Below are positions 3,306 to 43,641 of a DNA stretch of 64,000 bases, piece after piece. Source of the stretch: a virus; IMG/VR virus record IMGVR_UViG_3300021137_000006, positions 17,868-81,867 of that record; one strand, written 5' to 3'. Under the pieces are notes generated by a model that saw nothing but the letters and a program-made list of their open reading frames with translations, was not told the origin of the DNA and ran no database searches. The stretch's first letter is position 1. The number at the start of each line of letters is the position of its first letter. Both the position numbers and the translations under genes were made by a program.

Positions 3306-4040
3306 ATGCGATTTATGAACTACACCCTGCACTACGACAGGTTGATGCTAAAAGCATCTACTCGGGACTTACCCTCTACTGTGTATACGGAAACTCATCA
3401 CATTATTCCGAGATGTATGGGTGGGACGGATGCCAGCGTCAATCTAATTAGATTGACGCCAGAAGAGCACTTTTTGGCTCATCAGCTGTTAGTAAAAATG
3501 CATCCGGAGAATGTGAATCTAATATGCGCCGCCCACCTGATGTGTTATGGGAACAATGGTACTAGAATGCATAATAAGTCATTTGGTTGGATTAAACGTA
3601 AACTAGCACTAGTGACATCTGAACGATTTAAAATAGTTAATAAACGACCCCAACAGACGGCAGAGTGTCCGCATTGTGGCAAAGTGGGAGGGGTTAATGC
3701 GCTACAACGATATCATTTCGAACGATGTACGTATCATCCAGATAGTGCCCAACGTCAACACAACTTGACCTCGAGGGTTGGTAAACCACAATCTGATGCA
3801 ACCAAAGCAAAACGAAAAGCAACTCAACGAGATAACCCCCCACATCGAGGCAAACAACACTCTGCTGAAACAAAAGAACGACTTCGTGAGATCAAACTCC
3901 GCCCCGATAACCCTCGCCGTGGAATAAAAGCTGGTCCACAACCAGTTGTTACTTGCCCTCATTGTGCTAAAACAGGTGGAAAGAATAATATGGTAAAACA
4001 TCATTTCGATAAATGCAGGATGAAAGACGCTGCTAAATAG
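3306..4040 (+). CDS. HNH homing endonuclease with two C-terminal zinc fingers
   Basis: 244 residues. An HNH core lies near residues 30-60 (ETHHIIPRCMGGTDAS then N-L-x-x-L-x-x-x-E-H), giving the His-His...Asn...His set of a beta-beta-alpha-metal nuclease. Two C-terminal zinc knuckles of the form CPHC-K-x-GG...H-F-x-x-C (about 123-143 and 217-237) are DNA-recognition modules common in phage homing genes; a basic NUMOD3-like stretch sits between them. It is a free-standing gene inserted between virion genes and would copy itself into related phages that lack it at this site. An alternative start is the ATG at 3315. Confidence 0.85.
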   Translation: MRFMNYTLHYDRLMLKASTRDLPSTVYTETHHIIPRCMGGTDASVNLIRLTPEEHFLAHQLLVKMHPENVNLICAAHLMCYGNNGTRMHNKSFGWIKRKLALVTSERFKIVNKRPQQTAECPHCGKVGGVNALQRYHFERCTYHPDSAQRQHNLTSRVGKPQSDATKAKRKATQRDNPPHRGKQHSAETKERLREIKLRPDNPRRGIKAGPQPVVTCPHCAKTGGKNNMVKHHFDKCRMKDAAK

Positions 4041-15130: not shown

Positions 15131-18034
15131 ATGACTTCACAACCGTTTTTTGATGCTCCTGGTGGAATTCGCCGGGAAGGTAATGACCAAACCCTAACCT
15201 TTACCCGAACATCGCCGACGACTGGCACAGTATGTTGGGCACCAGTTTCGACTAACTGCACCCCAAGTGGCAACTATACAGGTGGCGTACTCGTTGGTAG
15301 CACATCAGCCATCGGACAATCAGAAAAGCCAAGCGACGGAACGTGTTGCTATACTGGTGACCCTACGTTATCTCAACAACTTTTTGCTGGAGATGTACTC
15401 GGTAATGCAAAAGTGCTATGGAGTAGTAACACCGATGCCCAAACTGGATGCATCGACGTTACTGGGCTGGATGGGAATTGCTCAGCATACTACTTCGCAT
15501 TTTTCGCCATCGATAACGTTTGTCGGTACAACCAAGACGGTATTTTTAGCTACTCCCAAGCACTATCCACCACCATCGTAGATTGCACTCAAGGTCACCA
15601 ATGTCTACAGGCAAATGGCGCACGTCCGACGGATCAATTGAACCTACTAACACCTGGTGGCGATGGGATCGATCCAGCCACTAAAATGTATGCTGTTACG
15701 TTAAATCTAGATGGTAGCCGGTACGACATTGTGCTCAGAGGTTCTTATCTAACGACGTATCAATCACTTGTTGATGAATTTTCAACTGCTTGGCAGCGAG
15801 TGGGTTCCCAATTGATCGAAACTCCGCACCCACCGCACTATGGCGAATTTGTGTTTGCTAACGGAATATGGACGCAATTTGATGGAATCGTCGCTCGCCA
15901 AGTATTTCCATTATTCAGTAGCACCGATCCGCTTTCAGCAAGTGTAGGCGCGGTGTGGTTGAATACTATCGATAACTCACTCAACGTCTGGGACGGTATT
16001 AATTGGAATGCTGCCTCCCCAGCTATTAAATTTCCACAAGATCCGTCAATCGTCGCTTGTGACCAATATTGGTTCGACGGGCAGGTTGCCAACCAATTTG
16101 ACGGAGTAACGTGGATCGCTCAACCTACGTATACTCAGTTAACTGATCCGGCGAGCGCACCAGTCTTAACTTGCAGCTCGTTTTGGATCAATGATCAAAA
16201 CTTCAGTCGCTGGAATGACACATCATTTGCTTGGAATCTAGTACAAGTGACACAATTTGCTGTTGATCCTATGAATGTGCCAAACGGAACATACTGGTTC
16301 AACCCACTCAACCTATCTCTCCAACTTTGGAACGGCCTAGTGTGGGTCGGTCAAGTATTTGTTAATAGCACCGTACAACCTAACGAACCTCTTGCTAATG
16401 CACTGTGGTTCAATGGAGCTGCGAATACGCTTGCCAAATATAATGGACTAACCTCATTGTGGGATACACTCTCGGTTACAGTGCATTTCAAACCAGTCAA
16501 TAATATCCATATCGGAGAATTGTGGTTCAATACCACAATTTTCGCACTATCTGAATACACAGCAACTGGTTGGGTAGATGTTATGGCAGCGACGGTCACC
16601 TCGACGACCAATCCGGCACTACCACCAATTATGACAGAGGGTACAATGTGGAAAAACACCACATCTGGCATTTGGTTTACTCGAAGTGGTACCAAGTGGA
16701 GTGGCGTCAATGTGGTTGATAGTGCAGTGGATCCGAGATCGTTAGTTACTGGATATTGGTACAACCCAGCTACAACTTCGTGGTATCAACGCGCTGGCGC
16801 TATGTGGATACTAGTAGTTCCAGATTTCAGTACAGCATACTCCCCGACGACCGCTCAGCTTGGTTCTACGTGGTGGGATGGTACTCAACTCTGTCAACAG
16901 ACTACAGTAGTTGCAGTTCCTTTTTCCTCTCCGTCTAGTCCAATCTCCAGTTGGACTGTAGTTCCATTTTCGACCACCCCAGTCTCTATATTAGTAGGTC
17001 AACGTTGGTTAAATACGACGTCTAATGTAGTTTCTCAGTGGTCAGGCAGCGCTTGGGTGGAGCAAGTTGCTCCGTATACAGTCGCATTTAACGCGAAAAA
17101 TGACATTTTGCTAACCTCCACGACGTGTGGAGAACCCTCGTCGATTGAGTTGATCAATGCTCCAGTAATATTCTCCCTACTCCGGTTGATCCCGTCGCAC
17201 CCTGTGCCAGGACTAGACGGCAAATCAGGAACGCCAATGTATTTGGAAGTCGGCGTCGGCACGGATGGCAGCGTAGACGAACGTCGTTCAGTAATTGACA
17301 ATCTGTACACTAGACTTGGTCACCCGATCGTTAACGTTGAGCTAACCCGTAGTCAGATGGACTTAGCTGTGCAAAAGGGATTGGATTACATTCGTCGAGA
17401 CAGTGGGGCTGGATACAGTCGTGGATATTTCTTCCTTGACCTGCACGCAGGTCAGCAGCACTATACACTAACAAGCAAAACTGTCGGATTCAATAAAATT
17501 GTGGATGTGTTGTACTTGTACAGACCACGCGGCGGTTTCCTAAATTCGACATTCGGTGGGGAAATTTACGGACAACAAATGTTACAGCAGTTGTACGTGT
17601 CTGGTACGTTCGATATCTTAACGTATCATTTACTTGCTAGTTATCAAAACGTCGTTGCAAAAATGTTTGCATCTGAACTGCAGTATCAGTGGAGCGAGCG
17701 AACCCGAGTTCTTGCGATTATGCGTAAAATTGGCCGTAAGGAACGTATTCTTGTGGATGCAGTAATCGAACGTACTGAACAAGACTTGTTCACAGACCGC
17801 ATTACGAAAAACTGGGTTGAAAACTGGGCATTAACAGAAGCAAAAATTATGCTCGGTGAAATGCGCGGTAAGTATACGAGTCTGCCGGGTGCAGGCGGAG
17901 CAATCTCAATGAATGGGGAATCCCTCAAAACCGAAGCACTAGCCTCGCAGGCTCTGTTAAAAACAGAGTTGGAAGACTTTCTCGCGTCTGATGTCGAAAC
18001 GTGGGGCATTGGTGCAAGTATCACCAAAGGATAA
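15131..18034 (+). CDS. Neck protein (T4 gp13-like) with a large Trp-rich repeat extension
   Basis: 967 residues. The C-terminal third (from about 720) matches T4-type gp13 neck proteins: TRLGHPIVNVELTRSQMD, a D-Y-I-R-R segment, GFNKIVDVLYLY and an ending with LPGAGGAISMNGESLK. The other two thirds are unlike T4 gp13. A cysteine-rich N-terminal region of about 230 residues (possibly fibronectin-like) is followed by about ten tandem repeats of roughly 40 residues (about 240-645) with the pattern W-x-N...L..W-x-G-x-x-W. Neck position means this part could project from the head-tail joint as a collar, whisker or surface-binding appendage. It is followed immediately by gp14- and gp15-like genes. 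Confidence 0.7.
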   Translation: MTSQPFFDAPGGIRREGNDQTLTFTRTSPTTGTVCWAPVSTNCTPSGNYTGGVLVGSTSAIGQSEKPSDGTCCYTGDPTLSQQLFAGDVLGNAKVLWSSNTDAQTGCIDVTGLDGNCSAYYFAFFAIDNVCRYNQDGIFSYSQALSTTIVDCTQGHQCLQANGARPTDQLNLLTPGGDGIDPATKMYAVTLNLDGSRYDIVLRGSYLTTYQSLVDEFSTAWQRVGSQLIETPHPPHYGEFVFANGIWTQFDGIVARQVFPLFSSTDPLSASVGAVWLNTIDNSLNVWDGINWNAASPAIKFPQDPSIVACDQYWFDGQVANQFDGVTWIAQPTYTQLTDPASAPVLTCSSFWINDQNFSRWNDTSFAWNLVQVTQFAVDPMNVPNGTYWFNPLNLSLQLWNGLVWVGQVFVNSTVQPNEPLANALWFNGAANTLAKYNGLTSLWDTLSVTVHFKPVNNIHIGELWFNTTIFALSEYTATGWVDVMAATVTSTTNPALPPIMTEGTMWKNTTSGIWFTRSGTKWSGVNVVDSAVDPRSLVTGYWYNPATTSWYQRAGAMWILVVPDFSTAYSPTTAQLGSTWWDGTQLCQQTTVVAVPFSSPSSPISSWTVVPFSTTPVSILVGQRWLNTTSNVVSQWSGSAWVEQVAPYTVAFNAKNDILLTSTTCGEPSSIELINAPVIFSLLRLIPSHPVPGLDGKSGTPMYLEVGVGTDGSVDERRSVIDNLYTRLGHPIVNVELTRSQMDLAVQKGLDYIRRDSGAGYSRGYFFLDLHAGQQHYTLTSKTVGFNKIVDVLYLYRPRGGFLNSTFGGEIYGQQMLQQLYVSGTFDILTYHLLASYQNVVAKMFASELQYQWSERTRVLAIMRKIGRKERILVDAVIERTEQDLFTDRITKNWVENWALTEAKIMLGEMRGKYTSLPGAGGAISMNGESLKTEALASQALLKTELEDFLASDVETWGIGASITKG
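15940..17062 (+). repeat. Coding tandem repeats, W-x-N...W-x-G-x-x-W
   Basis: About ten degenerate repeats of some 115 nt within the neck gene. Examples are VWLNTIDNSLNVWDGINW, YWFNPLNLSLQLWNGLVW and RWLNTTSNVVSQWSGSAW. DNA identity between units is low, so they are old. Confidence 0.75.
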
Positions 18035-40200: not shown

Positions 40201-40276
40201 AGTTTAAGGATACGAACAGCAAATCTAAACAATTTGACCTTTTAATTCAAACCTAAAGTGTATCCTGTCTTATTTT

Positions 40277-42724: not shown

Positions 42725-42841
42725 AGTTGCTCCTGCTGGGCCAGGAGTTCCCACCGAGGGTAGTATGCTATTCGATTCAGCTGAAAGTATGGTACACATA
42801 AATCCGCACGGTTCGGAAAGGTTCGAATCCTTTAGCAACTT
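42725..42841 (+). pseudogene. Aberrant 117-nt tRNA-like element
   Basis: Perfect 7-bp acceptor AGTTGCT/AGCAACT and perfect T arm AAAGG-TTCGAAT-CCTTT, but about 40 nt too long in the middle, with no clear anticodon stem; no CCA. It could be a tRNA carrying an insert, as at 43412, or a decayed gene. Confidence 0.5.
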
Positions 42842-42849
42842 CGTATATT

Positions 42850-42924
42850 GCCCTTGAAGTGTAGACAGCGACACACTTGTTTCGTAATCAAGAGAGTGGT
42901 GGGCAGGTCACCACAAGGGCACCA
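42850..42924 (+). tRNA. tRNA-Thr(CGU)
   Basis: Perfect acceptor GCCCTTG/CAAGGGC, loop TTCGTAA in stem CTTGT/TCAAG, CCA encoded. T loop atypical. Confidence 0.78.
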
Positions 42925-43004
42925 TTTAAAAGAGTTTTCGTCCCCTGCGAGAATTCTTCTAAATGGTCGGATTTTTCAGACTATATACATTAAGCGGATA
43001 CAGA

Positions 43005-43421
43005 ATGGCGTACAGCAAGCACAATATAACATGCTTACACTGTGGCACGGAGCGAGAACAGAGCAAACACTCAGCAAGAGGAAAGTTCTGTTCAAACAGG
43101 TGTCAAGTTGATTACCAGTACAACCAGTTTATACAGCGTTGGTTAGCTGGCGAGGAGACTGGTTTGAGTGGACAGCGTGGAATAAGTTTGCACGTTCGAC
43201 GTTTTGTATTTGAAAAGTTTGATAGCAAGTGTGTTGAGTGTGGCTGGAATCAAAAGCACCCAACAGATGGTCGAATTCCACTGGAAGTAGATCACATAGA
43301 TGGTAACTGGATGAATACGACGGAATCTAATTTGCGGTTGTTGTGTCCAAACTGTCATTCACTTACGATAACTTATAAGTCGAGAAATCGACAGAGTAGT
43401 AGAAAGTACAAGCCCGATTAG
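43005..43421 (+). CDS. HNH homing endonuclease (intact)
   Basis: 138 residues from the ATG at 43005. N-terminal zinc finger (CLHCGTEREQSKHSARGKFC then SNRC), a helix pair, then a zinc-HNH core: KCVECGWNQKH, PLEVDHIDGNWMNT and LRLLCPNCHSLT. The D-H...N...H set of an HNH enzyme is complete. The ORF closes at T-A-G formed by U8-A9-G10 of the next tRNA. The remnant at 38059 is a relative of its C-terminal half. Confidence 0.88.
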   Translation: MAYSKHNITCLHCGTEREQSKHSARGKFCSNRCQVDYQYNQFIQRWLAGEETGLSGQRGISLHVRRFVFEKFDSKCVECGWNQKHPTDGRIPLEVDHIDGNWMNTTESNLRLLCPNCHSLTITYKSRNRQSSRKYKPD

Positions 43422-43559
43422 CTCAGGGGTAGAGCAACCGCCTTTTCGGAGAGGATAATGACCTCTCTCCACAGGAGATTCTCACGAGTCTCCTGTACAG
43501 GAGGATAACTCCAAAAGGTAAGCGGTAGGTCGTCTGTTCGAATCAGACATTGGGCACCA
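43412..43559 (+). tRNA. tRNA-Thr(UGU) interrupted by a 73-nt insert in the anticodon
   Basis: All tRNA parts are intact: acceptor GCCCGAT/ATTGGGC, D arm GCTC/GAGC, anticodon stem ACCGC/GCGGT, T arm GTCTG-TTCGAAT-CAGAC, CCA. The anticodon loop, however, is 80 nt (43442-43521). Joining CTT (to 43444) to GTAA (from 43518) restores CTTGTAA, the standard tRNA-Thr(UGU) loop. The insert (43445-43517) folds into three hairpins and its ends continue the stem (CTTTT/AAAAG). Exact junctions are ambiguous by a few bases; UUU (Lys) or GGU (Thr) are alternative outcomes. Confidence 0.75.
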
Positions 43560-43566
43560 AAATTTA

Positions 43567-43641
43567 GCTCCTAAAGTGTAGATGGCGACACACTGGTTTT
43601 GTAATCCAGAAAGCGAGGTTCAAGTCCTCGTGGGAGCACCA
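43567..43641 (+). tRNA. tRNA-Thr(UGU), uninterrupted
   Basis: Acceptor GCTCCTA/TGGGAGC, loop TTTGTAA in stem CTGGT/TCCAG, canonical T arm, CCA encoded. It follows the interrupted tRNA by seven bases. Confidence 0.88.

Follow-up and report, generated by a model that had tools for sequence, protein, structure and literature searches.

A conserved 73-nt insert in the anticodon loop of a phage tRNA-Thr gene: a candidate tRNA intron of undescribed type

Introduction

Group I introns follow a U and end in G, and the bulge-helix-bulge consists of two 3-nt bulges flanking a 4-bp helix at the junctions. Breaks in the anticodon loop are repaired by T4 Pnkp/Rnl1. RNA repair is covered in PMC7824862. According to PMC4033280, a review, bacterial tRNA genes are uniform, with group I (and II) introns as their only significant interruption, and most bacterial tRNA group I introns lie at 37/38. 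A second review states that, as of 2014, all introns seen in phages lay in protein genes, despite the many tRNA genes of phages (PMC3984707). In the accessible text of the literature we searched, which lay mostly outside subscription journals and included PMC7824862, PMC13015707, PMC3984707 and PMC4033280, we found no nested tRNA and no small phage tRNA intron other than group I. Here we describe a phage tRNA-Thr gene that is interrupted in its anticodon loop by 73 nt, and compare it with these systems and with inserts in other phage tRNA genes.

Results

The DNA analysed, referred to as the window, is a stretch of 64,000 nucleotides (positions 17,868 to 81,867) of the 81,867-base virus record IMGVR_UViG_3300021137_000006. 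The record belongs to a tailed phage, whose genes include those for a tail sheath, a major head protein and a DNA polymerase, and its capsid protein is closest to those of Xanthomonas phage XacN1 and Stenotrophomonas phages CM1 and RAS14 (55-57% amino acid identity). A tRNA array extends from about 37.9 to 45.2 kb of the window. With introns allowed, ARAGORN called a tRNA-Thr(tgt) at 43412-43559 with a 73-nt insert in the anticodon loop; the default setting, without introns, did not call this gene, so tRNA inventories made without intron options can miss genes of this kind. The split gene was also recognised by the Rfam tRNA model (Infernal on a short stretch, 52.3 bits, E 6.4e-11, with the interior of the anticodon loop skipped). 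The two programs agree with the original prediction, made from the sequence alone, that a tRNA-Thr is split here by a structured 73-nt insert. As had also been claimed, seven bases separate the end of the split gene (43559) from an intact tRNA-Thr(tgt), called by ARAGORN from 43567. The parts of the locus are:

43412-43444, plus strand: 5' exon of tRNA-Thr, with acceptor strand, D arm, 5' anticodon stem and, in the UGU reading, C32 U33 U34 (ARAGORN -i, Rfam tRNA)
43445-43517, plus strand: insert of 73 nt that interrupts the anticodon loop, lying between U34 and G35 if UGU is read (ARAGORN -i, fold; 69/73 identical to L462:17853-17925)
43518-43559, plus strand: 3' exon, with G35 U36 A37 A38, 3' anticodon stem, T arm, acceptor strand and ACCA (ARAGORN -i)
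43567-43641, plus strand: intact tRNA-Thr(UGU) (ARAGORN; its score of 102.2 is the lowest but one of the array)

The anticodon loop of the split gene measures 80 nt, and removal of 43445-43517 leaves the 7-nt loop CTTGTAA. The joined exons scored 121.6 in ARAGORN, versus 114.1 with the intron in place, and the corresponding scores in the related contig L462 (see below) were 121.0 and 113.5. In both genomes the joined exons outscored every other tRNA of the array that ARAGORN called (in the window 20, of which the best reached 119.6, and in L462 10, with a maximum of 120.7). Several 73-nt cuts are possible, four of which score equally at 121.6. Cutting one base earlier (CT-insert-GGTAA) would give the loop CTGGTAA of a Thr GGU tRNA, and cutting one or two bases later would give CTTTTAA (Lys). 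We prefer the UGU reading (CTT-insert-GTAA) because the uninterrupted homologue, tRNA-Thr(TGT) of Synechococcus phage S-H25, has an identical anticodon arm, ACCGC-CTTGTAA-GCGGT. Judged from this likeness the split gene probably encodes tRNA-Thr(UGU), with GGU as the remaining alternative.

The three hairpins of the insert and the extension of the anticodon stem by its ends, both foreseen in the original prediction, all occur in the predicted fold of the window sequence:

43442-43517, plus strand: predicted closing stem, CTTTT (43442-43446) with AAAAG (43513-43517), which prolongs the anticodon stem and takes three bases of the 5' exon
43449-43467, plus strand: predicted hairpin 1, GAGAGG/CCTCTC
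43471-43496, plus strand: predicted hairpin 2, ACAGGAGAUUC/GAGUCUCCUGU, 11 bp, loop UCAC
43500-43512, plus strand: predicted hairpin 3, GGAG/CUCC, loop GAUAA

The fold of the whole split gene has a z score of -4.9 and none of 200 shuffled sequences was as stable. The insert alone gave z = -5.2 (0/200 shuffles as stable) and z = -4.9 (0/500) in the window and z = -3.9 in L462 (0/500). The outer CTTTT/AAAAG stem is absent from the minimum-energy fold of L462 and is present in the consensus of the two sequences.

Contig L462 (109,810 bases) was found by a search with the neighbouring primase gene, which is 69% identical in amino acids. Its split gene spans 17819-17965, and the surroundings are as in the window: the DNA upstream is homologous, and downstream there is an intact tRNA-Thr(tgt). 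The original prediction had proposed a look at this site in relatives, and we found the insert present in L462. The two split-gene genomes are far diverged. Four-fold sites agree at 219 of 550 positions (40%) in eight genes, a comparison that includes some poor alignments (one gene at 29% amino acid identity), and at 102 of 234 in the primase, ClpP-like and exonuclease-like genes alone; at 40% agreement, synonymous change is close to saturated. Within the insert, 69 of the 73 positions are identical. The four differences (43448, 43458, 43459 and 43497) leave the stems of the two-sequence consensus unaffected, and the window's own fold has an extra G-U pair at 43448 that L462 does not have. The best-conserved longer stretch nearby, 255 nt of the upstream neighbourhood, is 85.5% identical, and shorter stretches of the array reach 88-90%; the binomial probability of the identity of the insert is 0.014 against 85.5% and 4e-23 against 40%.

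The tRNA body around the insert has diverged considerably. Among the 17 pairs of the acceptor, anticodon and T stems, 6 are altered on both sides and 11 are the same; none is altered on one side only, and the stem pairing of a pseudogene would be expected to decay, whereas 0/17 pairs are broken in either genome. The D arm is outright different between the two. On the L462 stretch the Rfam tRNA model scored nothing at E up to 1, and ARAGORN does call the split tRNA there. One of the two readings first offered for this locus was a recent insertion that killed the gene. This is contradicted by the same insert at the same site in diverged L462 with 17/17 stem pairs kept, and L462 does not show the randomly decayed tRNA that would have spoken against a removable element. 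Together the two genes look like a maintained, interrupted tRNA. Since two sequences are compared, the insert could alternatively have been transferred lately as a unit between two healthy tRNA genes; had it moved horizontally in this way, its identity need not mean selection. Because an intact tRNA-Thr(UGU) lies beside the split gene in both genomes, the split gene looks redundant for decoding.

We then compared the insert with known classes of interruption. The group I core model (Intron_gpI, RF00028) matched nowhere in the window, near the split gene, elsewhere in the record or in L462, and the same Rfam search finds group I introns in two other phage loci, L013 and L015, which serve as positive controls. 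The remark that the insert is too short for a group I intron is in keeping with this result. The 5' exon ends in U and the insert ends in G (CTT-TT...AAAAG-GTAA, UGU reading), which is weak evidence for group I. A bulge-helix-bulge was rejected by eye on the folds, where we saw a 3' bulge only and the 5' junction lay within CTTTT/AAAAG. Self-cleaving ribozymes were tentatively set aside as well. At its 3' junction the insert ends CTCCAAAAG and has no inner acceptor stem with CCA, and it is missing from the strict list of nested tRNAs described below; a T-loop (TTCRA) was not found within it.

The insert is known from two examples only, the window and L462. A pattern for its ends returned 30 stretches, and the sole one with anticodon-stem pairing and a T-loop, L513, is from the same contig as L462. 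A covariance model of the insert gave no third example in 99 of 566 sequences, where three weak matches (E 0.5-0.7) had no tRNA context, nor in a search of 5 records. The sole stretch of the viral contigs that matched the exact insert pattern, L002, was rejected, as its context looks protein-coding and no tRNA was found there. No relative was retrieved with the papain-like protease gene as bait, and the insert had no match in plasmids. When the window tRNA was compared with cultured phages, none of 286 records covered 80% of the query, and in the two-piece matches listed the exons align and the insert is unmatched. The covariance model had no credible match in XacN1, CM1 and RAS14, the major capsid protein relatives, of which CM1 was searched by this model only. 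The 11.8-bit matches in XacN1 (E 3) have no surrounding tRNA, and ARAGORN intron calls in the scanned parts of XacN1 (three) and RAS14 (one) were unconvincing on folding.

Upstream lies a homing gene that had been said to end in the split tRNA, and its reading frame does end there, at 43421:

42963-43421, plus strand: open reading frame of an HNH endonuclease gene, ending inside the split tRNA

In 80 loci with relatives of this gene, taken from searches of which one gave the best 80 of 407 matches, the nearest downstream tRNA was Thr(UGU) in 13 of 49 and the nearest upstream tRNA in 21 of 55, against a background of 54 among 781 tRNAs overall; these counts include sibling contigs. In L017 and L040 an HNH relative lies beside a tRNA-Thr(UGU) that itself has a loop insert (the outer tRNA of L040 is Thr by our reading and Gly(tcc) by ARAGORN). 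The HNH family is likely to have a homing preference for the tRNA-Thr(UGU) gene. In L462 no intact HNH gene adjoins the split gene, and two short HNH-like pieces (52% over 23 and 19 amino acids) end 494 nt upstream, so an HNH gene may once have been near. Since L462 keeps the insert, an intact neighbouring HNH gene is not needed to keep it, and the tie between insert and HNH gene is loose.

Three other elements were seen in this part of the array. A long hairpin with the 7-nt loop TCCCCTG lies between tRNA-Thr(CGU) and the HNH gene (42922-42966) and also occurs in L462. An oversized tRNA-like sequence with a 7-bp acceptor and a T arm (42725-42850) is called by neither ARAGORN nor Rfam, and its acceptor has a compensating change in L462 (AGTTGCT/AGCAACT versus AGCTGCT/AGCAGCT). 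The motif (A)ACAGCAA(T) recurs in inserts of tRNA arrays or their neighbours, in the inserts of L014, L044, L155 and L346 and at about 40204-40275 of the window, a stretch that is 88.9% identical in L462 over 72 nt.

Other phage tRNA genes also carry inserts in the anticodon loop. Pattern scans gave at least 120, at least 120 and at least 115 rows, counts that are not a census; in two of them the upper gap was too wide and mostly neighbouring tRNAs were returned. A scanner for long anticodon loops found 44 unique cis arrangements, including archaeal introns and tandem tRNA copies, versus 8 in a permuted control. Because this scanner has a real background, we rest the nested class on a stricter list, 11 of 67 long-loop rows, which became ten when L120 (5 acceptor pairs, odd loop) was dropped; two of the ten are from L009, and L311 is a near variant of one of these. 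In all ten the insert ends in CCA, its ends pair as in an acceptor stem (by 7 pairs in nine rows and by 6 in L017), and once it is removed a loop of 7 nt is left (CTTTTAA in four, CTTATAA in three, CTTCTAA in two, TTTGTAA in one). U36 is found in 10/10 and was required by no search pattern; A37-A38 was required by two. In six rows the cut follows position 34, in the other four position 35. The outer isoacceptors are our reading of the joined loop, and ARAGORN names several differently. The nested cases, with two read by hand, are:

L085:14-143, nested case
L085:5316-5506, nested case, tRNA-Thr(UGU) interrupted at 34/35 by 119 nt of tRNA-like sequence (found by hand and then confirmed: 7 pairs, CCA, CTTGTAA; missing from the strict list through de-duplication)
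L009:100-225 and 693-846, nested cases
L044:2184-2327, nested case, CTGTTAA, inner tRNA of 71 nt (also a manual reading, later checked; missed by the scanner)
L106:4219-4339, nested case
L204:113-260, nested case
L215:10457-10610, nested case
L228:4514-4662, nested case
L183:2156-2294, nested case
L311:4097-4246, minus strand, nested case

The inner elements form a gradient. They are full-length tRNAs in L228 (tRNA-Pyl(cta) according to ARAGORN) and L215 (78 nt), are reduced to 58 and 50 nt in L085 and L009 and to an acceptor and T arm of 44 nt in L106 (three contigs), and are smallest in L017, a 22-nt hairpin with UCCA. RNase P is known to need the parts that are retained along this gradient. 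The loss of the anticodon arm with retention of these parts suggests excision by tRNA-processing enzymes.

Further types of insert were a common hairpin of about 25 nt in tRNA-Arg(UCU) (our reading of the isoacceptor) in L208, L209 and L213, a set in L040 whose outer tRNAs are Asn, Thr and Lys by our reading and Ser, Gly and Val by ARAGORN, and the group I introns:

L040:925-1081, 2572-2724 and 3706-3860, three tRNAs of one array, each insert consisting of a hairpin and, after it, an acceptor and T arm like those of a tRNA
L013:3850-4037, group I intron by Rfam, in tRNA-Leu(UAA) at 34/35 by our reading
L015:2088-2277, group I intron by Rfam, in tRNA-Arg(UCU) at 34/35 by our reading
L015:1805-2033, group I intron by Rfam

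The L013 locus with its tRNA array also holds a ROOL RNA (L013:103-717; Rfam RF03087, 296 bits). In 16 of 19 sources the split isoacceptor as read has no intact copy within the DNA examined, the exceptions being the window, L462 and L017. This is weak support, since several of the 19 derive from one contig or from siblings and the loci are incomplete (L204 is without any intact tRNA).

An RNA ligase would be needed to rejoin tRNA halves. The L462 record has an Rnl1-family ligase domain (E 8.5e-14) in a frame that is interrupted by an opposite-strand GIY-YIG/NUMOD3 homing-endonuclease gene, with the apparent rest of the ligase frame beyond:

L536 (G001:26500-29500): Rnl1-family RNA ligase gene broken by a GIY-YIG/NUMOD3 homing-endonuclease gene on the other strand

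A search of the 82-kb fragment that contains the window yielded no Rnl1 and no RtcB. The kinase family PF13671 had no match in the window or L462 records, and the Rnl2-type family PF09414 had none in the L462 record. Insert-bearing records are not enriched in Rnl1, which occurs in 4 of 14 (three being siblings) versus 7 of 36 others, among which L014, L015 and L044 possibly have inserts of their own.

Discussion

Our data suggest, with somewhat better than even confidence, that the 73-nt insert represents an undescribed type of tRNA intron, one in which no ribozyme core can be recognised. The loop left by its removal is identical to that of an uninterrupted phage tRNA-Thr(TGT), and other phage loci have inserts in the same loop, group I introns included. 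Because no group I core was found by covariance model and no bulge-helix-bulge in the folds, cutting followed by ligation is the most likely route. The precursor would fold as a normal tRNA, with the anticodon stem running on into an A-U-rich stem by which the three hairpins are kept away from the loop. The insert would be freed by cleavage at two points close to the foot of this stem, most likely after U34 and before G35, and an RNA ligase would then rejoin the exons as tRNA-Thr(UGU). Candidates for the cutting enzyme are host RNases that act in tRNA processing or decay; those for the joining enzyme are host RtcB and a ligase of the T4 Rnl1 type, which repairs anticodon loops. We infer transcription and excision, as well as these enzymes, from sequence. 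The other first reading, a new removable element, is thus the better of the two, in that L462 conserves both the insert and the tRNA stems, and removal itself is the part that we extrapolate.

The best of the other explanations, although an unlikely one, is that the gene is not spliced and the 148-nt RNA is itself the product, tRNA-like with an enlarged anticodon arm and serving for instance as a decoy for a host protein that binds or cuts tRNAs. Such a product would account for insert sequence and consensus stems being kept in two viruses and for the conserved tRNA architecture, and, given the redundant intact tRNA-Thr(UGU) that both genomes carry, there is no evident need for the split gene in decoding. 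It leaves unexplained why removal gives a perfect 7-nt Thr loop and the best-scoring tRNA of each array.

We give slightly less credence to a mobile passenger that homes into tRNA-Thr(UGU), shields the gene from the HNH endonuclease and stays in, its function being covered by the second copy. The over-representation of the HNH family beside tRNA-Thr(UGU), the adjoining HNH relatives of L017 and L040, the broken HNH-like fragment upstream in L462 and the sharp edge of identity at the insert all fit this idea. However, L462 retains the insert with no intact HNH gene alongside, and an abandoned tRNA should lose pairs whereas none of the 17 is broken.

A coreless group I intron, spliced in trans or no longer spliced, is very improbable. 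The U before the insert and the G at its end, a CCUU/GAGG pairing across the 5' edge that we read from the sequence, and the location of the L013 and L015 introns at 34/35 (by our reading) agree with it, but Intron_gpI matches neither the window, the surroundings of the gene, the rest of the record nor L462, and hairpin 1 competes with the supposed P1. An assembly error or neutral recent insertion, which only the redundancy of the split gene favours, can practically be set aside, being already contradicted by the presence of the insert at the same site in two clearly different genomes.

The small, conserved, coreless insert and the nested-tRNA inserts, which lie at or next to its position in other phages, would add to the known ways in which a tRNA is interrupted and made whole again, and phage RNA ligases would have a constructive role. 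More tentatively, and as an idea we hold with less than even confidence, the anticodon loop of large phages may receive several unrelated kinds of removable RNA, namely group I introns, tRNAs (complete or reduced) with a terminal CCA, simple hairpins and the three-hairpin element of 73 nt. Ordinary tRNA processing (RNase P and a 3' enzyme) could excise the forms ending in CCA, and RNA ligase would reseal every kind other than the group I introns. Bacterial viruses would in that case splice tRNAs with neither a ribozyme intron nor the archaeal endonuclease, a categorically new route.

The insert shares features with each of the described systems. Like group I tRNA introns (RF00028) it interrupts the anticodon loop, follows a U and ends in G, and those of L013 (tRNA-Leu) and L015 (tRNA-Arg) also lie at 34/35 by our reading; however, the three Rfam matches found here are about 190-230 nt long, whereas the insert has 73 nt and, by covariance model, no catalytic core. 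Like the protein-spliced tRNA introns of archaea and eukaryotes it is a short, non-catalytic insert that prolongs the anticodon stem, but those are usually at 37/38 rather than 34/35, and its carrier is, by gene content, a bacterial virus. With the nested tRNA or mini-tRNA inserts (L085, L009, L106, L204, L215, L228, L044 and others) it has in common the same or an adjacent position in the loop, a U36 tRNA and a 7-nt loop after removal; these end in CCA with ends that pair as an acceptor stem, and the window insert has neither. T4 Pnkp/Rnl1 is a phage enzyme set that seals a broken anticodon loop and would supply the joining step, with the difference that it mends nuclease damage whereas here an encoded piece would be removed.
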